Assembly: GCF_003574655.1 (NCBI RefSeq)
Contig: NZ_QNUM01000007.1
Coordinates: forward strand, 62,001-126,000
Direction: 5' to 3'
DNA from: Cohaesibacter haloalkalitolerans
GTDB taxonomy: Bacteria; Pseudomonadota; Alphaproteobacteria; Rhizobiales; Cohaesibacteraceae
Length of the DNA: 64,000 bases
Position numbers and translations under genes: made by a program. This document shows positions 17,873-40,377 of the stretch, in pieces. Each line of letters starts with the position of its first letter. Position 1 is the stretch's first letter. Under the pieces are notes generated by a model that saw only the letters and a list, made by a program, of their open reading frames with translations, searched no databases and was not told the origin of the DNA.

Positions 17873-20578
17873 TTATGCGGGTCTCTTTTTCTCCGTCTTG
17901 AGGGGAACAACGCTGGCGCCTTGCGGCTTGGCGGTCTGTTCCGGTTTGACAACTGCGTCGGCCTTTGCCTGTTCGCGCTCATAGGCTTCGATGAACGGAC
18001 GGCCATAGTAGCTGTCCATCATGATCTGCTTGAGCTCGGAGATCAGCGGGAAGCGCGGGTTGGCGCCGGTGCACTGATCATCGAAGGCAGCCACGGCGAC
18101 TTCGTCGATCTTGGCAAGGAAATCTGCCTCGGCAACACCGGCGGCCTGAATGCTGGCCGGGATTTCAAGATCGGCTTTCAGTTCCTCGATCCAGGCAATC
18201 AGATTCTCGACCTTGTGCTGCGTGCGTTCACCGCCCAACCCCAGATGATGGGCAATCTCGGCATAACGGGCCCGTGCCTTGGGCCGGTCATACTGGGAGA
18301 AAGCCGTCTGCTTGGTCGGGTTGTTGGTGGCGTTGTAGCGAATGACATTGCAAATCAGCAATGCATTGGCCAAACCATGCGGCAGGTGGAAGGCCGCGCC
18401 CAACTTGTGCGCCATGGAATGGCAGACACCGAGAAAGGCGTTGGCAAAGGCGATCCCGGCAATGGTTGCGCCGCTGTGAACATGTTCGCGGGCAACCGGA
18501 TCATTGGCGCCATTCTCATAGGCCGACGGCAGGTTTTCCTTGAGCAGTTTGAGAGCCATCAGAGCCTGACCATCGGAGAATTCGTTGGCCATGACCGAGA
18601 CATAGGCTTCAAGGGCGTGGGTGACCGCATCAATCCCGCCGAAGGCTGTAAGAGACTTCGGCATGTTCATGACGAGGTTGGCATCCACGATCGCCATGTC
18701 GGGCGTCAGCTCATAGTCGGCCAGCGGGTATTTCTGGCCACTGACGTCATCCGTCACCACGGCAAACGGGGTGGCTTCCGAGCCGGTACCGGAGGTGGTC
18801 GGGATGGCAATCATCATTGCCTTTTCGCCCATCTTTGGGAATTTGTAGATGCGCTTGCGAATGTCCATGAAGCGCAGGGCCAGATCCTTGAAGCTGACAT
18901 TCGGATGCTCATACATCACCCACATGATCTTTGCGGCATCCATCGGCGAACCGCCACCGATGGCGATGATCAGGTCGGGATTGAAGGCATGGCATTTCTC
19001 GGTGCCCTTGCGGACAATCGAGAGGGTCGGATCGGCCTCGACATCGGCAAAGATATCGACATCGATCCCCTGTCCCTTGAGCAGGCGAACAGCCTCATCA
19101 ACATAACCGTTGGTGAACAGGAAGCGGTCGGTGACGATCATCGCCCGTTTCTTGCCCTTGAGGTCCTTGAAGGCCTCGGCCAGACAGCCGCGACGGAAGT
19201 AGATGGACTTCGGAACCTTGTGCCAAAGCATGTTTTCCTCGCGCTTCGCTACGATCTTCTTGTTGATGAGATGCTTCGGTCCCACGTTTTCAGAGATCGA
19301 GTTACCACCCCATGAGCCGCACCCGAGTGTGAGGGATGGCGCGACATTGAAGTTGTAGAGGTCGCCGATGCCGCCCTGCGAGGATGGCATGTTGACCAGA
19401 ATGCGAGCGGTCTTCATTCTCTTGCCGAAATCTTCGACACGATCGGAACAGCGGTCCTGATCTGTATAGAGAACGGAGGTGTGCCCAATGCCACCAAGAG
19501 CGACCAGCCGGGCTGCAGTGTCGGCGGCTTCGTTGTAGTCCTTGCGGCGATAGAGGGCGATGGTTGGAGAGAGCTTTTCGTGTGCGAAAGGCTCGTCTTC
19601 GACCCCGTCCACCTCGGCCATCAGGACCTTGGTTTCGGGGGACACACTGAAGCCTGCCAGTTCGGCAATTCTGGCGGCAGACTGGCCGACGATCTCGCTG
19701 TTGAGGCGACCATCCGGGAAGACGGTCTTGCGCAGTGCGTCGGTCTGTTTTGGCGACAGGATACAGCCGCCATATTTGGAAAAACGTTCAAGAACCGCAT
19801 CGTAGACGGCATCGACGATTACCACTGCCTGTTCGGAGGCGCAGATCATGCCGTTGTCAAAGGTCTTGGACATCAGGATCGAAGAGACGGCGCGCTTGAT
19901 GTCAGCATGCTCGTCAATCACAACGGGGGCATTGCCCGCACCGACGCCGATGGCTGGCTTGCCGGACGAATACGCGGCCTTGACCATGCCCGGACCACCG
20001 GTGGCCAGGATGAGATTGATGGCGGGATGGCGCATCAGGGCGTTGGACAGCTCAAGGGTCGGTTCATCGATCCAGCCGATGATGTCCTGGGGGGCGCCCG
20101 CAGCAACAGCGGCTTCCAGAACCAGTCGGGCAGCCTCGCATGTCGCCTTCTTGGCGCGCGGATGCGGGCTGAAAATGATGCCATTGCGGGTCTTGAGAGA
20201 AATCAGGGCCTTGAAGATGGCCGTAGAGGTCGGGTTGGTCGTCGGCACGATGCCGCAAATGACGCCAACGGGTTCGGCAATGGTGATCGTGCCGCCCAGT
20301 TCGTCCTCTTCAAGGATACCGCAAGTCTTGGTGTCCTTGTATTTGTTGTAGATATATTCGGAGGCAAAGTGGTTCTTGATCACCTTGTCTTCAACGACGC
20401 CCATGCCGGTTTCCTCGGCAGCCATCATCGCGAGCGGAATGCGCGCATTGGCGGCAGCGAAAGCGGCCTGACGGAAAATACGGTCGACTTGTTCCTGGGA
20501 GAAGCTTGCGAACTTCAATTGCGCGGCCTTGACGCGGGCAATCTGGCGATCAAGCTCTTCGGCATTGGTAACAGACAT
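17873..20578 (-). CDS. adhE: bifunctional acetaldehyde/alcohol dehydrogenase
   Basis: Reduces acetyl-CoA to acetaldehyde and then ethanol, regenerating NAD+ in fermentation. The 901 residues comprise an N-terminal CoA-acylating aldehyde dehydrogenase (about 1-440; catalytic Cys246 in GMICASEQ) and a C-terminal iron alcohol dehydrogenase (about 450-870; AIGGGSPMDAAK, TTSGTGSEATPF, and metal-binding His in CHSMAHKLGAAFHLPHG). The start has ACGGAG about eight bases upstream. The last ~30 residues are Ala/Lys/Pro-rich and variable. Full-length and intact; such proteins normally polymerise into spirosomes. It stands alone between its terminator and an AT-rich promoter region, and functionally pairs with pflB 18 kb away. 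Confidence 0.97.
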   Translation of the reverse strand: MSVTNAEELDRQIARVKAAQLKFASFSQEQVDRIFRQAAFAAANARIPLAMMAAEETGMGVVEDKVIKNHFASEYIYNKYKDTKTCGILEEDELGGTITIAEPVGVICGIVPTTNPTSTAIFKALISLKTRNGIIFSPHPRAKKATCEAARLVLEAAVAAGAPQDIIGWIDEPTLELSNALMRHPAINLILATGGPGMVKAAYSSGKPAIGVGAGNAPVVIDEHADIKRAVSSILMSKTFDNGMICASEQAVVIVDAVYDAVLERFSKYGGCILSPKQTDALRKTVFPDGRLNSEIVGQSAARIAELAGFSVSPETKVLMAEVDGVEDEPFAHEKLSPTIALYRRKDYNEAADTAARLVALGGIGHTSVLYTDQDRCSDRVEDFGKRMKTARILVNMPSSQGGIGDLYNFNVAPSLTLGCGSWGGNSISENVGPKHLINKKIVAKREENMLWHKVPKSIYFRRGCLAEAFKDLKGKKRAMIVTDRFLFTNGYVDEAVRLLKGQGIDVDIFADVEADPTLSIVRKGTEKCHAFNPDLIIAIGGGSPMDAAKIMWVMYEHPNVSFKDLALRFMDIRKRIYKFPKMGEKAMMIAIPTTSGTGSEATPFAVVTDDVSGQKYPLADYELTPDMAIVDANLVMNMPKSLTAFGGIDAVTHALEAYVSVMANEFSDGQALMALKLLKENLPSAYENGANDPVAREHVHSGATIAGIAFANAFLGVCHSMAHKLGAAFHLPHGLANALLICNVIRYNATNNPTKQTAFSQYDRPKARARYAEIAHHLGLGGERTQHKVENLIAWIEELKADLEIPASIQAAGVAEADFLAKIDEVAVAAFDDQCTGANPRFPLISELKQIMMDSYYGRPFIEAYEREQAKADAVVKPEQTAKPQGASVVPLKTEKKRPA

Positions 20579-21075
20579 TTTGTTACTCCGTTTTCAAGGC
20601 GCACAAACCCGTTCCGAGGCTTCAGGGCTCCCGGTGAAGGACGAACGCCAAAAGATGATTTTCGCGTGCCCTTACGGGTGCCACGCGCCCTGCTCCGGCG
20701 AGAAGGTCCTGAATGCCACACAGGTCTTCCTTCGGCTGTCGGGTTCTCTTCGTTACCCTTTGCGTTTAACGATCCAGACCGCCTTGACAGTGATGCCAGT
20801 CTAGCGCGTTCCTGCACCTGACGAATTAAGGAGGTCTACGTAAGAGCTCATTTTGGACAGCGAGGGCGCAGTAACACCACTCATGGGGCATGAATAATAT
20901 GTGCAATTCCAATAAGTAAACAAATTTTTCCTAATTTCAAAAATCTGTGACTCATTTTCCCAATCAGTTAATTTCCTGAATTTTCCTGCATTTACCTAGT
21001 CCAAACTTATTTGAACGCATATCTAATATGCATTTTTCGCATACATAATAGACGAAATCGAAGCTGTTTGGCGCT
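20579..21075. promoter_or_regulatory. adhE control region
   Basis: AT-rich spacer. On the minus strand AAACAA/ATAATA (20918-20923 and 20894-20899) read as TTGTTT-N18-TATTAT, a plausible adhE promoter with a leader of about 300 nt. The leader contains a hairpin, CGCGTG (20663-20668) with CACGCG (20682-20687) enclosing CCC/GGG. At 21027-21042 lies a TATGC-N7-GCATA inverted repeat, a 12-of-16 match to the motif shared by pflB and the 51-residue gene. No Rex or canonical FNR site is seen. Confidence 0.45.
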
Positions 21076-23541
21076 CTAACCTTTCAAATAGTCCACCTCC
21101 GCCACAATAGGCGGCAAATGGGAACGGCGCTGGCGCAAAATGGCAAGGTGCTTCGGGCGCCCCGGTAAAAGGGTGAAGCAATTGTCCGAGTAGAGTCGAT
21201 CGCCACCATGATGATAGGTGACGAAAAAGGCTGGCTTGTCCGTCCTCAGCTCGATCTCCGTGTCGCCATTTGCAGTCGCCCGCTCGGTCGCCTCAATGAC
21301 CGGCGTTGCAAGCCGATAGTCCTTGGGCCGCTTGGGCCAATAGTCATTCTCGCCAGTGATGGCCCCGTTGGCGCTGCGCCAGGAGAAATGCAGGATCGCG
21401 TCCGCACCGATTTCCTCCAGTGTCAGACTGGCCAGTTCGACAGAGCGGTCCGTTGGCACATCGATGGCAAATTCGCCCAGCGAGCGGATGGCACCGGACA
21501 TTCCAACCGCTTCAAGGCGGACGGTCAAACCGACCGGCTCCGGCGTGTCATTGACTGCGTGAATGATCACCTGTCCCTCATCCGGCTCAGGCTGGGCGGA
21601 GACAAGGACCGAAGCATTGAAACGCCGGGCAAGATAGTGGACCAGCTTCCAACCGCCGCCATATTCAAGGCTCGACCAGCTCGCCACCGGCCATGTGTCA
21701 TTGAGCTGCCAATAGAGCGTTCCCATGGTGCGTGGCTTGTTGGTCCGCCAGAATTCGATGGCAGTTTTCATTGCCAGCCCCTGGCCGATCTGGCTGAGAT
21801 AGACCATCTCCGCGAAGCTGTCGGGAAAACGGAAATAGCGGGCGATGGTTTCTACAATGCGGCTGTTTCCGCCCTCATTGCGCTGATGCACATCCATGAC
21901 CGGCGACGATACATTGCGGTCCTCCGGTTCGGTGAAACTCTCGATCACGCGCATCGAGGGGAAGGACTGGAAGCCGAATTCGGAGCAGAAGCGCGGTCGT
22001 ACTGTCCGATAGTGCTCGAAGTCCTTGGCCGAGTGCCAGACATCCCAGAAATGCATGTCGCCAGCGGTGTCATCGTGCCAGCCATCGCCGAAGTTGAACG
22101 GCCCGACCGATGGTGAGGATGGCCAGAACGGAATGCCCGGCGCTTCTTCCAATAGGCACTCCTCAAGCACAAAATTGAGGCGTTCATACATGGCAAGATA
22201 GCGATCTCGATCCTTCTTGCTTTCCTCGAACCAGCTGATGGCACCGACCAGTTCGTTGTCGCCACACCACAGCGTCATGCAGGGATAGCCAGACAGTCGC
22301 CGAACCTGTTGCCGGGCTTCCCGACGCACCAGATCGAGCCAGTGGTGATCGGCGGCAGGGTAGAGATTGCAGGCGAACATGAAGTCGTGCCAGACCATCA
22401 GTCCCAGTTCCGAGCACAGCTCGTAGAACCAGTCTTCCTCATACTGGCCGCCGCCCCAGACACGGATCATGTTCATGTTGGCCTCTACAGCCGAGGTCAG
22501 CAGATCGCGCACCGCTTCAGGCGTGGCGCGGGCAGGCATGGCATCGGCAGGGATCCAGTTGGCGCCGCGCGCAAAGATCTCGCGTCCGTTGATGCGGAAG
22601 GCAAAGCGCGCACCGATGGTGTCCCTGTCCGTGACAAGCTCGACCTCCCTGAGCCCCACCCGCCGACTGATGCTCTGGCCATCGATCATCACCGTCAGAT
22701 CATAAAGGGGCTGATCGCCATGCCCCCTCGGCCACCAGAGGCGTGGCTCGGCCACCTCGATTTGCAGCGCGGCCGAGCCCTTTCCGGGCCAGACGGTAAC
22801 AAGATCGGAAATCACACGGCCATCGAAATTGGCAGCCAGTGTCAGCTCTGCCGGCTCGAAGGCCTCATAATGGATGGTCAGATCGACAAACACCCGCCCT
22901 TCTTCATGGCGCTGGCGCACAAGCAGATCGTCAAGGCGCAGCTTGTTGATCCGCCTCAGCGAGACACCGCCATAGATGCCCAGCGGCGAGAGCGCGACAT
23001 TCCAGTCCCAGCCCGCATGACACTGGGCCTTGCGCAGGAAATTGTAATGTGGCAGACGGCAATTCCAGAAGATATAAGGCACCGCAAAAGGGAAGGCCTT
23101 GCTGGCGGAAAGAGCAGCCCTGCTATTGGAGAGAAAGCGGACAACGAGGCGGTTCTCGCCCTTCTTCAACGCCGCACCCAACGGAAAGTCATAGCGCAGA
23201 AACTGGCTTTCGCAGCGACCGATTTCCACCTCGTTGAGCGAGACGATGGCATGGCAGTCGACATGGGTGAAGGTCAGCACGTGCGGATCAGCCGCGTCGC
23301 CATCAAAGGTGAACCGGGTTTCGGCGCACCATTCATTCTCGTGAATCCAGTCAAGGCTGGTTTCCGTGTCACGCCAATAGGGATCGGCAATGATCTCCTC
23401 GGCCAGAAGTGCCGAGTGCAGGTCGCCGGGAATCGGGAAGGGAACACTCACCTTGCCGTCTGGTGCGCTGGCAACAGAACTGATGGCCCACCCCTCATTG
23501 AGAGGTTGCTCGGTGGTAAGCGGGGAGACTTGCGTTATCAT
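21076..23541 (-). CDS. GH2 beta-mannosidase
   Basis: Exo-enzyme releasing beta-linked mannose from manno-oligosaccharides. From the ATG at 23541 (AAGGAAG upstream) it is 821 residues. An upstream in-frame ATG at 23712 gives an implausible Arg/Ser-rich extension. GH2 architecture is clear: N-terminal sugar-binding beta-domain (about 15-190), immunoglobulin-like domain (about 200-290), then the TIM barrel with acid/base Glu in WCGDNELVGA and the nucleophile in RFCSEFGFQSFPSM. WHDFMFACNLYP is the beta-mannosidase-specific block. No signal peptide is visible, so it is cytoplasmic. No mannan transporter or regulator adjoins it. Confidence 0.93.
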   Translation of the reverse strand: MITQVSPLTTEQPLNEGWAISSVASAPDGKVSVPFPIPGDLHSALLAEEIIADPYWRDTETSLDWIHENEWCAETRFTFDGDAADPHVLTFTHVDCHAIVSLNEVEIGRCESQFLRYDFPLGAALKKGENRLVVRFLSNSRAALSASKAFPFAVPYIFWNCRLPHYNFLRKAQCHAGWDWNVALSPLGIYGGVSLRRINKLRLDDLLVRQRHEEGRVFVDLTIHYEAFEPAELTLAANFDGRVISDLVTVWPGKGSAALQIEVAEPRLWWPRGHGDQPLYDLTVMIDGQSISRRVGLREVELVTDRDTIGARFAFRINGREIFARGANWIPADAMPARATPEAVRDLLTSAVEANMNMIRVWGGGQYEEDWFYELCSELGLMVWHDFMFACNLYPAADHHWLDLVRREARQQVRRLSGYPCMTLWCGDNELVGAISWFEESKKDRDRYLAMYERLNFVLEECLLEEAPGIPFWPSSPSVGPFNFGDGWHDDTAGDMHFWDVWHSAKDFEHYRTVRPRFCSEFGFQSFPSMRVIESFTEPEDRNVSSPVMDVHQRNEGGNSRIVETIARYFRFPDSFAEMVYLSQIGQGLAMKTAIEFWRTNKPRTMGTLYWQLNDTWPVASWSSLEYGGGWKLVHYLARRFNASVLVSAQPEPDEGQVIIHAVNDTPEPVGLTVRLEAVGMSGAIRSLGEFAIDVPTDRSVELASLTLEEIGADAILHFSWRSANGAITGENDYWPKRPKDYRLATPVIEATERATANGDTEIELRTDKPAFFVTYHHGGDRLYSDNCFTLLPGRPKHLAILRQRRSHLPPIVAEVDYLKG

Positions 23542-23966
23542 CGGGCTTCCTTCTTGCTGGATTCCGGTCATCTTCCTGATTTGACGGCCGCTTGCGAGAC
23601 TCGCTCGCTTGCGCGGACTTTCAGCCAGAATAGGACGGAAACAGCCGATTGGCCACCTCGCTCGGATGACACTCGACAAAAGAAGAAAGCAGCAAAATCG
23701 CGCCTGAAGCACCCGTCACAGACTCAGCCGGATGGGTTTCAAGGCTCGATCGGGAAGAAAAGAGAAGGTGGATCGGAAGCGGACCAGCCTGAAGCCGGTC
23801 AAGGCTCTTGGGGCGAGCCTGTGCCCTGAGCGGGCTTTCCTGATATCGTGATCCGTAATCGGGCGTCAGATCGTCAGCCCAGTTGGCTGATCGTGCCGCG
23901 ATGCCTTCTGTCCGATCCAGATGACCGGGCAGTCTCGTTTGGGTGCGCTCGTGAAAGCGCCAGAGC
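23542..23966. other. beta-mannosidase upstream spacer
   Basis: About 425 bp without a recognisable gene. It must hold the beta-mannosidase promoter, but I see no clear promoter hexamers, operator or terminator. Open frames here on both strands have no family look. Confidence 0.4.
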
Positions 23967-24122
23967 TTACTGGTTGAAGCTGTCACGCAGACCGAGAATG
24001 AGCAGGTCCTGTTCGTTTGGCTGACGACCGTTCTGTACGTCGTTGCTGATGCGAGCTGCTGCTGGAAGAGACATGAACACGCTACCTACTGCGCCTGCTA
24101 CACCTTTGATGCTGTCAAACAT
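23967..24122 (-). CDS. unrecognised 51-residue protein
   Basis: A short gene with strong expression signals. From the ATG at 24122 it encodes 51 residues, starting MFDSIKGVAGAVGSVFMSLP and ending LLILGLRDSFNQ, with a TAA stop. GAGAGGA lies eight bases upstream; TTGGGA-N16-TAAAAT (minus strand; 24180-24175 and 24158-24153) is a good promoter, and a 13-bp palindrome lies at 24220-24232. The N-terminal 25 residues are Gly/Ala/Val-rich and could form an amphipathic helix; the rest is polar, with no Cys. The C-terminus faintly recalls DUF1127 endings but lacks that family's Arg/Tyr-rich core. I do not recognise the family. Confidence 0.7.
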   Translation of the reverse strand: MFDSIKGVAGAVGSVFMSLPAAARISNDVQNGRQPNEQDLLILGLRDSFNQ

Positions 24123-24152
24123 GATTTTGATCCTCTCTTTGTTTGGGTAAGC

Positions 24153-24180
24153 ATTTTAACTGAGACCAGAATAGTCCCAA
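24153..24180 (-). promoter_or_regulatory. promoter of the 51-residue gene
   Basis: Reading the minus strand, TTGGGA (24180-24175), a 16-bp spacer and TAAAAT (24158-24153). It lies 31-58 bp before the start codon, giving a leader of roughly 25 nt. Confidence 0.5.
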
Positions 24181-24218
24181 ACCAGCCAAGCAAAAAGAGC
24201 TTATCTAAAACTGCTGCA

Positions 24219-24234
24219 TTGCATTAAATGCATA
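24219..24234. promoter_or_regulatory. palindromic motif shared with pflB
   Basis: TTGCATTAAATGCATA; its core TGCATT-A-AATGCA (24220-24232) is a perfect odd-length palindrome. The same 16 bases occur on the opposite strand at 37788-37803 upstream of pflB. It is centred about 80 bp upstream of the predicted start of transcription of the 51-residue gene. Probably a regulator site. Confidence 0.55.
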
Positions 24235-24241
24235 ACAAACA

Positions 24242-24268
24242 AAAAGGCGTTGTTGTTCAACGCCTTTT
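24242..24268. terminator. bidirectional terminator after the BisC-type gene
   Basis: AAAAGGCGTTG (24242-24252) pairs perfectly with CAACGCCTTTT (24258-24268) across a five-base loop, with A- and T-runs on the two sides. It lies 34 bp past the stop of the minus-strand molybdoenzyme gene and insulates the 51-residue gene downstream. Confidence 0.85.
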
Positions 24269-24301
24269 GTCTCATTTCAGTTTAGAACAGCAATAAGCTT
24301 A

Positions 24302-26557
24302 TCACCGTTCGACGAAGTCCGGTGCATTTGAAACCTTGAGTGGCGGCAGGGGCTTTGTCCATGGCTCAACGAAAACCAGCGCCGTGTGGCCGATGTTACC
24401 CTGCGCCAGCGAGGACGTACCCTTGTCGATGGTCAGGGCATTCGGGTTGCCATGGATATCCATGCGCATGCCGTCAACCTCGGCTGCATCGAACCAGGCC
24501 CCCGTTTGCAGGGCGATGCAATCCCGACGCAGGTCACCATCAAACGCGACCCCGGCCAGCGTGGCGCCGCGACTGTTGAACAGTCGGACGATGGACCCTT
24601 CGGCAATGCCCCGTTCGGCGGCACTGTCGGGGTGGAGGCGACAGACCTCCCTGCCCTCGATCTTGCTGCCCAGGGATTCCGAGCCCTGATCATTCTGGCT
24701 GTGCAGGCGCGTGTCCGACTGGGCCGAGATCATGTGTAGCGCGCCTTGCGGCGCATCCAGCGTGCTTTCGACCGGCTGCAGCCAAGCCGGATGCCCCGGA
24801 CAGTCATCAAGACCGAAGGCGGCGATTTTCTCATTGAAAAGCGTGATCCTGCCACTCTCGGTGCCAAGGGGATGAGCCACCGGGTCGGCGACGAAGTCGG
24901 CTAGCGCAATGCGGGTTTCCACGTCCCGGTCCAGATTGAACCGACCCAGCTGGCGGAAGCTGTCGAAATCGGGCAGTTCCATGCCCTGCCCGGCAACGAG
25001 AGTTGCGGACTGGTCCCAGAGCCAGCGGAGCCAGTCTTCCTGCGACCGGCCTTCGGTAAAGGCCTCTTCCAGCCCCATCTTGGCGGCGATCAGCTTGAGG
25101 ATTTCATGATCGTCCTTTGCCTCGCCCACCGGGGCATGTACCGGCGACATATAGATGAGGGTCGGTTCTGTCTTGCTTAGCATGATGTCAGTGCGTTCAA
25201 GCGGCGTGGTCGCCGGCAAAACGATATCGGCGCGGCGAGCGGTTGCCGTCCAGCCCTGTTCGAACACCACCACGGTTTCCGGCTTCTGCCAGCCTTTCTC
25301 GAGCCGCAAAAGGTCCTGATGGTGATGGTAGGGGTTGCCCCCTGACCACAGCACCATGCGGATATCGGGATAGGTGCGCGTCGTGCCGTTGTAGGCATAG
25401 CGCTCGCCGGGATGCAGCAGCATGTCGGTGACGCGAGCGACGGGGATGAAATCGTCAACCGCATTCCTGCCCTGCGGGATCGAGGGCCAATAGACATTCT
25501 TGGTCGAGCGCCCGATGGATGCAACACAGCCATAGCCAAAGCCATAGCCCGTGCCCGGCTTGCCGATCTGCCCGAGCATGGAGGCAAGCGCCAGACCCGC
25601 CCATATCGGCTGTTCGCCATGGTCGGTACGCTGCACGCCCCAGGCAACGTTGATCATGGTGTGACTGGAGGCCATGTCCCGCGCCAACTGGCGGATAGCC
25701 TCGGCATCAACGTCACAGATGGGGGCAGCCCAGTCCGCGCTCCGCGCCTGCCCGTCGCTCTCGCCGAGCAGATAGGCGCACAGTTTTGGCCAGCCGGAGG
25801 TATAGCGTGTCAGGAAGGCTTCATCATGCAGCCCTTCAACGAGCAGCGTATGGCAAAGCGCCAGCATCAGCGCCGCGTCAGTTCCCGGGCGGATGGAAAC
25901 CCACTCGGCATTCGGCATGTCGCTTTTCTGCGGCGAGACATTGATCATCCGGCCCTTCATCTGCCTGAGCCAGTTTTCGGTGTGGTGTTTGGCGGTGCCG
26001 GAAGAGGCAACCTGTGCCGGACGACCGGAAATGCCACCGAAGGCAACCAGCAGGGTGCAATGTTCGGTGATATGCTCCCAACTGGTCATCTGATCCTGAA
26101 AATCCCCCTGCGGCATGCCCAGAATATGGGGGATGAGCACTTCGCCCGCCGCATGGGAATAGGTTTCCCGTGCCCGCACGAAGCCGCCCGCCAGATTGAG
26201 GAAGCGCTTGAGCTGGCTCTGGGCATGATGGAAACGCCCGGCACTGGCCCAGCCGTAGGAGCCGCCATAGATGGCACCATTTCCATGCTCCTTACAGATC
26301 CGGGTCAGCTCTTCTGCAACGCGGGTTGCCGCCTCGTCCCAACTGACTTCGACAAACACGTCATCCAGACGATTCTTGCCACCGTCGCCTTCCAGCCAGC
26401 CCTTGCGGATGGCGGGGCGCAGAATGCGGCTGTCGAGGTTGCGCGACGCACTCAGCCAACCTTTGCCGATACGCGACGGGGCCGGATCGTCGCCAACGGG
26501 CTTGAGATCATTGTCATGGATTTCATAGGTACCCCAGTGCGCGGCGGTGTATTTCAT
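24302..26557 (-). CDS. bisC: molybdopterin-dependent S/N-oxide reductase, BisC type
   Basis: Reduces sulfoxides or N-oxides such as biotin sulfoxide, using a bis-MGD molybdenum centre. The 751 residues start MKYTAAHWGTYEIHDND, with no twin-arginine signal and no N-terminal Cys cluster for an Fe-S centre, which fits the cytoplasmic BisC branch of the DMSO-reductase family rather than periplasmic TorA/DorA. YGGSYGWASAGRFHHAQSQ (about 96-115) carries the Ser that ligates Mo. The C-terminal MGD-binding domain (HSQNDQGSESLG...) is intact. It stands alone and is followed by a strong terminator. The exact oxide substrate is not decided by the sequence. Confidence 0.88.
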   Translation of the reverse strand: MKYTAAHWGTYEIHDNDLKPVGDDPAPSRIGKGWLSASRNLDSRILRPAIRKGWLEGDGGKNRLDDVFVEVSWDEAATRVAEELTRICKEHGNGAIYGGSYGWASAGRFHHAQSQLKRFLNLAGGFVRARETYSHAAGEVLIPHILGMPQGDFQDQMTSWEHITEHCTLLVAFGGISGRPAQVASSGTAKHHTENWLRQMKGRMINVSPQKSDMPNAEWVSIRPGTDAALMLALCHTLLVEGLHDEAFLTRYTSGWPKLCAYLLGESDGQARSADWAAPICDVDAEAIRQLARDMASSHTMINVAWGVQRTDHGEQPIWAGLALASMLGQIGKPGTGYGFGYGCVASIGRSTKNVYWPSIPQGRNAVDDFIPVARVTDMLLHPGERYAYNGTTRTYPDIRMVLWSGGNPYHHHQDLLRLEKGWQKPETVVVFEQGWTATARRADIVLPATTPLERTDIMLSKTEPTLIYMSPVHAPVGEAKDDHEILKLIAAKMGLEEAFTEGRSQEDWLRWLWDQSATLVAGQGMELPDFDSFRQLGRFNLDRDVETRIALADFVADPVAHPLGTESGRITLFNEKIAAFGLDDCPGHPAWLQPVESTLDAPQGALHMISAQSDTRLHSQNDQGSESLGSKIEGREVCRLHPDSAAERGIAEGSIVRLFNSRGATLAGVAFDGDLRRDCIALQTGAWFDAAEVDGMRMDIHGNPNALTIDKGTSSLAQGNIGHTALVFVEPWTKPLPPLKVSNAPDFVER

Positions 26558-37231: not shown

Positions 37232-37787
37232 TGGATGGCTCCGATTAAGGAATGGACGTGGAAGACCGGCAACCAAGGTCCGGTCATGCTGCACAAGCTG
37301 CTGGCGCTCTCGCGTGACGATAATGGCCCAGCCTGACAGGACCTTCATGCAGCGAGCGCCATTATATAGAGAGTGCTCCAGAGCAGGTTTCATGGTGAGG
37401 AAACACCGTTCGGATTGCAAATGCCATCAAAGGCTCCCTCTTCATCCGCGTCAAGCTGCTTCCTGATCGACAAGGCATGCAAATTCGCTGCGCTGCAGCA
37501 AAAAATTATACGTATAACTATTTATTAGTCATCAGTTTTTCCCATTTTAGCTATCCAGATACCTCATGCGACTCCGCAGGGACTCACGCACTCATCGCAT
37601 GGCTGAAAGTCGTCCTAAAAAAACTATCTAAAACCAAAGAACTAAAACCAAATAATTAGGCAACTGCAGTTACCTGCATTTGCGTTGCAGTGCAAAAACA
37701 CCCTGCGCATACGTGTTTATACGGAATTTTTTCCCAAATTTCAGCAAATTCGAGCACATCTTTTTCCGCAGACTGTATGGCCAGAGC

Positions 37788-37803
37788 TATGCATTTAATG
37801 CAA
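37788..37803. promoter_or_regulatory. palindromic motif shared with the 51-residue gene
   Basis: On the minus strand this reads TTGCATTAAATGCATA, identical over 16 bases to 24219-24234. The core TGCATT-T-AATGCA (37790-37802, plus strand) is a perfect odd palindrome. It is centred roughly 113 bp upstream of the predicted pflB transcription start. The half-site recalls NsrR/Rrf2-type ATGCATTT half-sites, but the spacing is two bases shorter. Confidence 0.55.
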
Positions 37804-37844
37804 ATCGCGCATTCCAGCTATTATCATATTGTTTTTATTGATTT

Positions 37845-37902: not shown

Positions 37903-38121
37903 GCCTACGAAAGTCAAGGAGGGAGTTCGTACTAGAACAAGGCTGCAAATACCAACGCTCTCCCCTTGCGGAAAAACCCTGGCTAACTCCCCTTTACAAT
38001 CGAGCGGTCGGCACTGCTCGTATTGGGTGAGCTATGCCCAAATGGTGGCTAAATGGTGGTTTGTGAGGCCACGCCACCTGACTGAACCGAATTTGCTCGT
38101 TTAACAGTGAGGATACCAACA

Positions 38122-40377
38122 ATGAATTATATGAGTGATAAACCCGTTGTCGCCGATCCATGGCAGGGGTTCTCGGATGGCGAATGGCGCAACAAGATCG
38201 ACGTGCGCGCGTTCATCCAGGAAAACTACACTCCATATGATGGTGACGACAGCTTCCTCGCTGACGCTACCGAGCGTACCAAACAGCTGTGGGAAGAACT
38301 TGGCGTCCTGCTGAAAAAAGAACGCGAAGCTGGTGTCCTCGACGTTTCGACCATTCCTACTTCCATCGCAGCTCACGACGCTGGCTACATCAACAAGGAC
38401 CTCGAAGTCATCGTTGGCCTGCAGACGGACGCTCCCCTGAAGCGCGCCATCATGCCAAACGGTGGCCTTCGCATGGTTGAAGGCGGCATGGAAGCATTCG
38501 GCTTCAAGCCAGACCCGCAGGTTCATGAAATCTGGACGAAATACCGCAAGGACCATAACCAGGGCGTTTTCGACGTATACAGCCCTGACATTCTGGCTTG
38601 CCGCAAATCCGGCGTCATCACCGGTCTGCCTGATGCCTATGGCCGTGGCCGCATCATCGGCGACTATCGCCGCGTTGCCCTCTATGGTATCGACTTCCTG
38701 AAAGCCCAGAAGCTGGCCGACTTCAACGACACCAATGACGCTGTGTTCGACATGGACACCCTGCGCCTTCGTGAAGAGCTCTCCGAACAGTTCCGCGCTC
38801 TTGAAGAGCTGCGCGAAATGGGCCTGAAATATGGCGTGGACATGTCCAAGCCTGCTACCAATGCTCGCGAAGCCATCCAGTTCACCTACATGGGTTATCT
38901 GGCTGCTGTTAAAGAGCAGAACGGTGCAGCCATGTCCTTCGGCCGTACCTCGACCTTCCTCGATGTCTATATCAAACGTGACATGGACGCTGGCCTGCTG
39001 ACCGAAGAACAGGCTCAGGAAATGATCGACGACATGGTCATCAAGCTCCGCATCGTCCGCTTCCTGCGTACGCCGGAATATGATGAACTGTTCTCTGGCG
39101 ATCCGACCTGGGTTACCGAATCCATCGGTGGTATCGGCCTTGACGGTCGTCCGCTGGTTACCAAGAACTCCTTCCGCATTCTGAACACCCTGTTCAACCT
39201 CGGTCCGGCTCCGGAACCTAACCTCACGGTTCTGTGGTCTTCCAAGCTGCCTCGCGGCTTCAAGGATTTCTGCGCGAAAGTTTCCAAGGAAACCTCTGCC
39301 ATCCAGTATGAGAACGACGACCTGATGCGTCCGAAGTGGGGCGACGACTATGGCATCGCCTGCTGCGTGTCCGCCATGGCCATCGGCAAACAGATGCAGT
39401 TCTTCGGTGCTCGCGCCAACCTCGCAAAATGCATGCTCTATGCAATCAACGGCGGCGTTGACGAAAAATCCGGCAAGAAGATTGCCGAAGGTCTGGAACC
39501 GATCACCGGTGACGTACTCGACTTCGACGAAGTCATGGCAAAATACGACATCGCCATGGAATGGCTGGCCAAAACCTACGTCAAGGCTCTGAACGCCATC
39601 CACTACATGCACGACAAATATGCCTACGAACGCATTGAAATGGCTCTGCATGACCGCGACATCCTGCGCACCATGGCTTGCGGCATCGCCGGCCTGTCCA
39701 TCGCAGCCGACAGTCTGTCTGCCATCAAACATGCCAAGGTTAGCGTTGTCCGTAACGAAGCCGGTCTGGCCGTCGACTACAAGATCGAAGGCGACTACCC
39801 AGCATTCGGCAACAACGACGATCGTGTTGACAGCATCGCATGCTACCTGACCGAAGCCTTCATGAAGAAGGTTGCTGGCCAGCCTTACTTCTACCGCGAT
39901 GCAATGCCGACCCAGTCCATCCTGACCATCACCTCCAACGTGGTCTATGGCAAGAAAACCGGCAACACCCCTGATGGCCGCCGCGCTGGCGAACCATTCG
40001 CTCCGGGTGCCAACCCGATGAACGGCCGCGACAAGAAAGGCTTTGTTGCTGCTGGCGCTTCGGTTGCCAAACTGCCTTACGACTATGCTCAGGACGGCAT
40101 CAGCTGGACTGCTTCTGCTACCCCGACCTCCATGGGTCACACTGACAAAGAGCAGATCCGCAACCTGGCCAACTGCCTCGACGGCTTCTGCGATGCTGGT
40201 GGCTTCCATGTGAACGTCAACATGCTTCGCCGCGAAACCCTGGAAGACGCAATGGAACATCCTGAGAAATATCCTCAGCTGACCGTCCGCGTTTCCGGCT
40301 ACGCCGTAAACTTCATCAAGCTGACCCGCGAACAGCAGCTCGATGTTCTGAGCCGTACCTTCCATGACCACATGTAA
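38122..40377 (+). CDS. pflB: formate C-acetyltransferase (pyruvate formate-lyase)
   Basis: Glycyl-radical enzyme converting pyruvate and CoA to acetyl-CoA and formate without oxygen. The 751 residues show the active-site Cys414-Cys415 in GIACCVSAM and the radical Gly726 in VRVSGYAV, 26 residues from the end. The ATG at 38122 has GTGAGGA eight bases upstream; a GTG at 38107 coincides with that site and is rejected. Codons are heavily restricted (GCT, CGT/CGC, GGT, CTG), in contrast to the neighbours, as expected for a very highly expressed gene. It is followed by a hairpin and by its activase. A true PFL rather than a dehydratase-type homologue, from length and the Cys-Cys pair. Confidence 0.97.

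Follow-up and report, generated by a model that had tools for sequence, protein, structure and literature searches.

We identified a 51-codon gene in a 64,000-nucleotide stretch of Cohaesibacter haloalkalitolerans DNA (the window, in which coordinates are given unless stated otherwise) that, on our reading of the whole evidence, probably represents a new family of small proteins controlled by the LysR-type regulator LsrB/VtlR and acting through protein contacts. The gene, its family, the operator upstream of it and the register between operator and promoter all emerge from the comparison of sequences. We infer that the redox-sensing activator LsrB/VtlR would bind the dyad TATGC-N7-GCATA, centred near -65, and once bound would switch on the sigma-70 promoter CTTTTT-N17-CTATTC of this small, presumably independently transcribed gene. 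Its product would be a helical protein of 51 residues, most of it one long helix (residues 2-30), that acts by binding a partner protein. Within the genus, the same predicted operator precedes a paralogue of the gene, pflB, adhE, a DUF1127 gene and an AbcR-like small RNA (sRNA). Since the small gene has this operator in common with fermentation genes, we propose that active LsrB would lead to joint production of the protein and the fermentation enzymes.

The 51-codon gene and its surroundings

The gene occupies 23967-24122 on the minus strand, with its ATG at 24122-24120 and its TAA at 23969-23967, and its product reads MFDSIKGVAGAVGSVFMSLPAAARISNDVQNGRQPNEQDLLILGLRDSFNQ. Glycine, alanine or valine make up 11 of the 25 N-terminal residues, and the C-terminus is LLILGLRDSFNQ. 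A first-pass annotation had called it a compact 51-residue gene, real and regulated, leaving the strand unsaid; coding selection, conserved synteny and the conserved operator bear this out well. Nine close Cohaesibacter orthologues, the window locus included, all have 51 codons, an ATG, a TAA and GAGGAT ahead of the start, and the Shine-Dalgarno site that had been claimed is present as AGAGAGGA at 24138-24131 (minus strand), with GAGGAT kept in nine of nine. A comparison of dN/dS across orthologues, which had been suggested as a check, gives a median NG86 value of 0.15 (36 pairs among these nine) and finds the frame itself conserved. Variable columns at codon positions 1, 2 and 3 number 15, 9 and 36, each out of 50, with third positions making up 36 of all 60, and in the alternative frames of the region dN mostly exceeds dS. 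Moreover, an orthologue is found in 12 of 18 genus genomes, its own included, at E<=5.2e-12. Judged by selection and orthology, the frame is a real protein-coding gene.

The order SelO, oxidoreductase, small gene, glycosidase, adhE is conserved in nine genomes; the window gene's own locus in this comparison is short, and its SelO and adhE lie beyond that stretch, yet inside the window. The preceding neighbour (24302-26557) is a molybdopterin S/N-oxide-reductase-like gene, which matches TIGR00509 below its cut-off, and the glycosidase-like neighbour (21076-23712) has a weak match to a beta-galactosidase model only. The gene had also been described as insulated by a strong terminator at 24242-24268. 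A hairpin with a T run is indeed found there (minus strand), but it is kept in only three of nine genomes (G000, G001 and G004), hairpin counts overall are at chance (8 found vs 7.3 expected) and we read it as the terminator that closes the preceding oxidoreductase gene. The Rfam family BASRCI414, a Brucella sRNA, was rejected as a candidate at this place: its plus-strand match at 24147-24270 skips most of the model and reaches 35.1 bits where the gathering score is 270, and, ending at the bidirectional hairpin, it is probably a chance match to a terminator. On the other side of the gene, about 35-60 bases past the stop codon (23895-23935, minus strand), the nine close relatives have a conserved block, CTGCCCGGT-N7-ATCGGACAG-like, able to fold into a hairpin or to serve as an operator dyad, and a second conserved block, GCCCGCTCAGGGCA, follows it. 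Both are possibly parts of a 3' RNA element or of an operator of the glycosidase gene.

An undescribed small-protein family

The same genome contains a paralogue of the gene at C17:354001, with a LacI-like regulator gene on one side and a GntR-like one on the other (named by eye). A 14-sequence profile from the genus yields matches in 66 of 397 genomes of the order at E<=0.01, and a wider profile of 18 sequences does so in 74 of 397 at E<=0.001, the latter count being partly self-matching because the profile includes some of the sequences it finds. In a class-level sample, 6 of 385 genomes have a match, the own genome included, and one of these matches is a stretch inside a 788-residue frame. 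The search of relatives that had been suggested as a check thus recovers the family at the protein level in distant taxonomic families of the order. Its consensus core is AAxRxAxAVExGRxPxxxDLxxLGI, and the conserved tail of the 51-residue protein is RxPxxxDLxxLG. Neither the window protein nor any of 33 family members matches a Pfam-A or NCBIfam model above its curated cut-off, the best stray match being DUF7387 (one of the 33 members, E 0.0037, below cut-off), and the earlier statement that there is no recognised family is correct for these two libraries. A structure model predicted from two sequences has helices at residues 2-30, 37-42 and 46-49 (mean pLDDT 78.3, pTM 0.49). With this model a Foldseek search of the PDB returns nothing at E<=0.001, a sequence search of solved structures gives a single weak match (E 0.11), and a PHROGs search with the protein yields nothing convincing. 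Our best reading of these comparisons is that the protein belongs to an undescribed family of small proteins of the Hyphomicrobiales. A literature search at the level of titles and abstracts, with supplements and most subscription papers outside its scope, found neither a description of the family nor a link between LsrB and pflB; it covered VtlR/LsrB and small proteins, LsrB/AbcR and pyruvate formate lyase, small proteins of S. meliloti, and Cohaesibacter.

Among known systems, the VtlR/LsrB-activated DUF1127 proteins (BAB1_0914, BAB2_0512, BAB2_0574 and atu1667) are alike in their length of about 50 residues, their occurrence in Hyphomicrobiales, an operator of the same kind and an LsrB/VtlR-type regulator, which for the present family is a prediction. 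Profile comparison also detects a weak DLxxLGI-like tail common to both (hhalign probability 15.7). In contrast, none of the 33 family members matches DUF1127 (PF06568) at E<=1, and the family lacks the YRQWR segment of the genus DUF1127 proteins, showing instead RxPxxxDL and a long helix rich in alanine. The autonomous glycyl radical cofactor GrcA/YfiD is likewise small and might be expressed alongside pflB. However, the window protein matches no NCBIfam model, those of GrcA included, and the GrcA models match pflB itself.

The shared dyad and its candidate regulator

The palindrome that had been noted upstream of both the 51-codon gene and pflB is real. Allowing up to two mismatches, TTGCATTAAATGCATAA (24219-24235, with a near-copy ahead of pflB at 37787-37803) occurs five times in the 5.0 Mb genome and a control pattern once, and three of the five sites precede the 51-codon gene, its paralogue and pflB. 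The site is a dyad, TATGC-N7-GCATA, which has the T-N11-A geometry of LysR-type sites and is represented at the 51-codon gene by TATGCATTTAATGCAAT (24218-24234, minus strand), a predicted LsrB/VtlR operator. It starts at -100 to -116 in 12 orthologues and at -102 to -113 in nine paralogues. A weight matrix trained on these 21 sites, that of the 51-codon gene among them, has its three top places in the 64-kb window at pflB, the 51-codon gene and adhE. The exact dyad is limited to four genomic sites, two of which are the regulon candidates paralogue and adhE; the third lies within a dehydratase-like coding frame and the fourth ahead of an imuA-like gene with a LexA-like GAAC-N7-GAAC of its own (frame and names by eye). 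A scan with one mismatch is mostly noise, because it finds 70 sites vs 35 for the control. A good match to the dyad, CATGCATATGGCGCATA, was also seen between uvrA and ssb (L111 3382-3398; names by eye). Finally, the alignment, read by eye, contains a second dyad, TAAGC-N7-GCTTG, 31 bp downstream of the first and overlapping the -35 element (24187-24203, minus strand), which is perfect (TAAGC-N7-GCTTA) in the relatives L035-L040.

Three other definitions of the site were discarded. An FNR or anaerobic box does not agree with the odd centre and N7 spacing of the dyad, and an exact FNR-type box stands before one distant homologue (L017) only. TGC-N3-GCA, which we take to be the PhaR-type motif, is confined to the closest species in the alignment. 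The published VtlR box, taken alone, is too short to take in the window gene, and the dyad was therefore used instead.

The dyad stands in a fixed register to a promoter. In an offset scan of the 21 promoters of both paralogues, CTTGAC-N17-CTATAT scores best at offset 37 from the dyad start (116, with a mean of 68.5 over 45 offsets). At this offset the window gene has a predicted -35 element CTTTTT (24192-24197) and a predicted -10 element CTATTC (24169-24174, both on the minus strand), with an expected transcription start near 24161. The alignment favours this pair over the previously claimed promoter TTGGGA-16-TAAAAT, which is at chance (2 found vs 2.7 expected). Offset 37 also fits the promoter of the AbcR-like sRNA, and no good promoter was found at that offset from the pflB, adhE and DUF1127 sites.

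Which regulator might bind the dyad is suggested by gene order and by published sites. A LysR-type gene lies directly downstream of the only trxB in the genome that scores above cut-off. In Rhizobiales lsrB forms an operon with trxB, and LsrB is described as a redox switch (PMC11975290). On this synteny the gene qualifies as the putative lsrB orthologue. It is followed by an ar15/AbcR-like sRNA (29.9 bits, gathering score 40; such sub-threshold ar15 matches also occur in 3 of 14 control genomes), whose promoter has a dyad, CATGCGGCATCTGCATA, at -73 and a half-site, GCATAGCAGATTT, at -61 to -49. A second ar15/AbcR-like candidate (L240, G000:C22:238181-238317, minus strand; 35.5 bits, below threshold) has TATGCATCATGTGCTTA directly before it. 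The LsrB box at PabcR1, the AbcR1 sRNA promoter of S. meliloti, is likewise positioned at -61 to -49 in the accessible part of PMC8844928. PabcR1 and the promoters studied here are alike in T-N11-A geometry, half-site position, a sigma-70 promoter with a 17-bp spacer and the register between site and promoter (offset 37 from the dyad start, 25 from the box start); they differ in that the product is an sRNA at PabcR1 and a protein in the case of the 51-codon gene.

The LsrB/VtlR box is given as GCAT-N3-TG-N3-T in the sections available of PMC7486931 and PMC8844928, and also as CAATGCAGCCATGCA in those of PMC12595884. The right half-site of the window gene with its extension, GCAATGCAGCAGT (24210-24222, minus strand), matches five of the seven fixed positions of the former, with AG in place of the published TG. 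The paralogue promoters match all seven in four of nine cases, six in four and five in one. Distant homologues beyond the genus allow a test that does not depend on our own matrix, since the box was taken from published work. Among 63 distinct homologues from 69 loci (region -330 to -60 from a conserved codon), the exact box was found in 23 upstream regions (300 shuffles: mean 1.36, maximum 5), ATGC-N7-GCAT in 18 (mean 0.66, maximum 4) and TGC-N7-GCAT in 29 (mean 2.32, maximum 7), counts that are inflated by relatedness because the shuffles do not model kinship. In four control windows at the same loci the box was found in 1, 4, 0 and 0 of 63. Box or half-dyad are present in 43 of the 63, spread over 10 of the 13 taxonomic families scanned, and for the 23 boxes the best promoter offset is 25 (score 119 vs a mean of 66.4, sd 14.6). 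One exact box precedes a homologue on an S. meliloti plasmid, the hypothetical 54-residue HB772_33500 (L121 3911-4075), near a glutamine synthetase gene. We therefore think that the dyad identifies LsrB/VtlR as the candidate regulator.

Further candidates for this regulon are found in the genus. The predicted operator TATGCATTTAATGCAAA (37788-37804, plus strand; weight matrix and pattern match) lies upstream of pflB (38107-40377, plus strand; TIGR01255 above cut-off), a predicted regulon partner. A dyad near -310 is present at all 14 pflB loci of the genus, pflB itself being found in 14 of 18 genomes, and the proposed co-regulation with pflB is to this extent supported by sequence. By simple count, kinship ignored, pflB occurs in 12 of 12 genomes with the 51-codon gene vs 2 of 6 without it; G007 and G012 have pflB but no family member. 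Upstream of adhE (17873-20578, minus strand; NF010378 above cut-off), a second predicted partner, the weight matrix finds TATGCGAAAAATGCATA (21027-21043, minus strand), a dyad that, of the eight loci read, has a strong form only in G000 and G009; at the remaining six it is weaker or decayed. All 18 genomes have an orthologue of the DUF1127 gene L197 (G000:C21:408862-409014). In G000, G001, G004, G007 and G012 a dyad with all eight ATGC/GCAT bases matched lies at -210 to -214 before it, and in the remaining twelve orthologues read the dyad is weaker or the full site absent. In Brucella, DUF1127 genes are activated by LsrB/VtlR, as stated in the accessible text of PMC12595884. The full published box extension is absent at the pflB, adhE and DUF1127 sites. 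An anaerobic-response role had been suggested on the strength of pflB. The regulated part of this idea holds, but the dyad fits the redox-sensing LsrB/VtlR rather than an anaerobic regulator such as FNR, and the pflB link applies within the genus.

Alternative readings and implications

A different LysR-type regulator, dedicated to the fermentation genes of the genus, might bind the dyad, with LsrB uninvolved. The window gene, pflB and adhE have the dyad in common without the full published extension, and T-N11-A dyads are used by many LysR regulators; the extract available of PMC8844928 calls T-N11-A a generic LTTR motif. We nevertheless consider this alternative rather improbable: the same dyad precedes the AbcR-like sRNA next to lsrB, where it would be expected, and also the DUF1127 gene, both of them known kinds of LsrB/VtlR target, and upstream of distant family members the published box is enriched, with its promoter register unchanged.

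The remaining alternatives concern the product. It is unlikely that the protein is a peripheral membrane peptide whose N-terminal helix lies on the inner membrane and whose tail displays a docking motif. Its long N-terminal helix does have a hydrophobic stretch, VAGAVGSVFMSLPAAA, and the helical moment reaches 0.36 in the best 18-residue stretch, but over residues 2-30 the helix is not significantly amphipathic (shuffle fraction 0.07; 0.38 and 0.60 in two relatives) and that of the paralogue contains charges. The idea that the transcript acts as a regulatory RNA, the conserved frame being secondary, draws on the sRNAs among LsrB/VtlR targets and on Agrobacterium atu1667, left open as small protein or RNA in the accessible part of PMC7486931; given the selection on the protein (dN/dS near 0.15, 36 of 60 variable columns at third positions) and a motif recognisable at the protein level in distant families, we regard it as very improbable. 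A chance reading frame within conserved intergenic DNA, as the shortness of the frame and the lack of a family model might suggest, is practically irreconcilable with the codon-position pattern, the dN/dS values, the alternative frames (dN mostly above dS), the paralogue and the order-wide family.

The reading we prefer, an LsrB/VtlR-controlled small protein, includes that it likely acts by binding a partner, an analogy and not a homology drawn from the DUF1127 proteins, which act by binding the kinase PhoR in the portion available of PMC12501420. As a first guess, the partner may belong to fermentative carbon flow, as the protein is predicted to be made along with PflB and AdhE; the enzyme-modulating role proposed in the first-pass annotation stays a guess. 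Tentatively, and with less than even confidence, the order-wide family may be a core product of LsrB/VtlR control, equivalent on the protein side to the AbcR sRNA, with every member binding and tuning a metabolic enzyme or sensor kinase. The Cohaesibacter LsrB would then have taken over pflB and adhE as well, one redox switch setting both enzymes and small modulators.

Several Rhizobiales depend on LsrB/VtlR for symbiosis or virulence, and the known direct targets of the regulator do not account for its phenotypes. Brucella melitensis did not regain virulence when AbcR2 and the three DUF1127 proteins were restored, according to the available text of PMC12595884. The small proteins described here, which the searched domain libraries lack, would add another widespread group to the candidate direct targets. 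With TATGC-N7-GCATA as the fuller form of the site, the short published box could be refined and the regulon predicted throughout the order, and control of pflB and adhE by LsrB, as predicted here, would open a new branch of it. The match of the control sequences to LsrB/VtlR would thus offer a direct route to the role of the protein.
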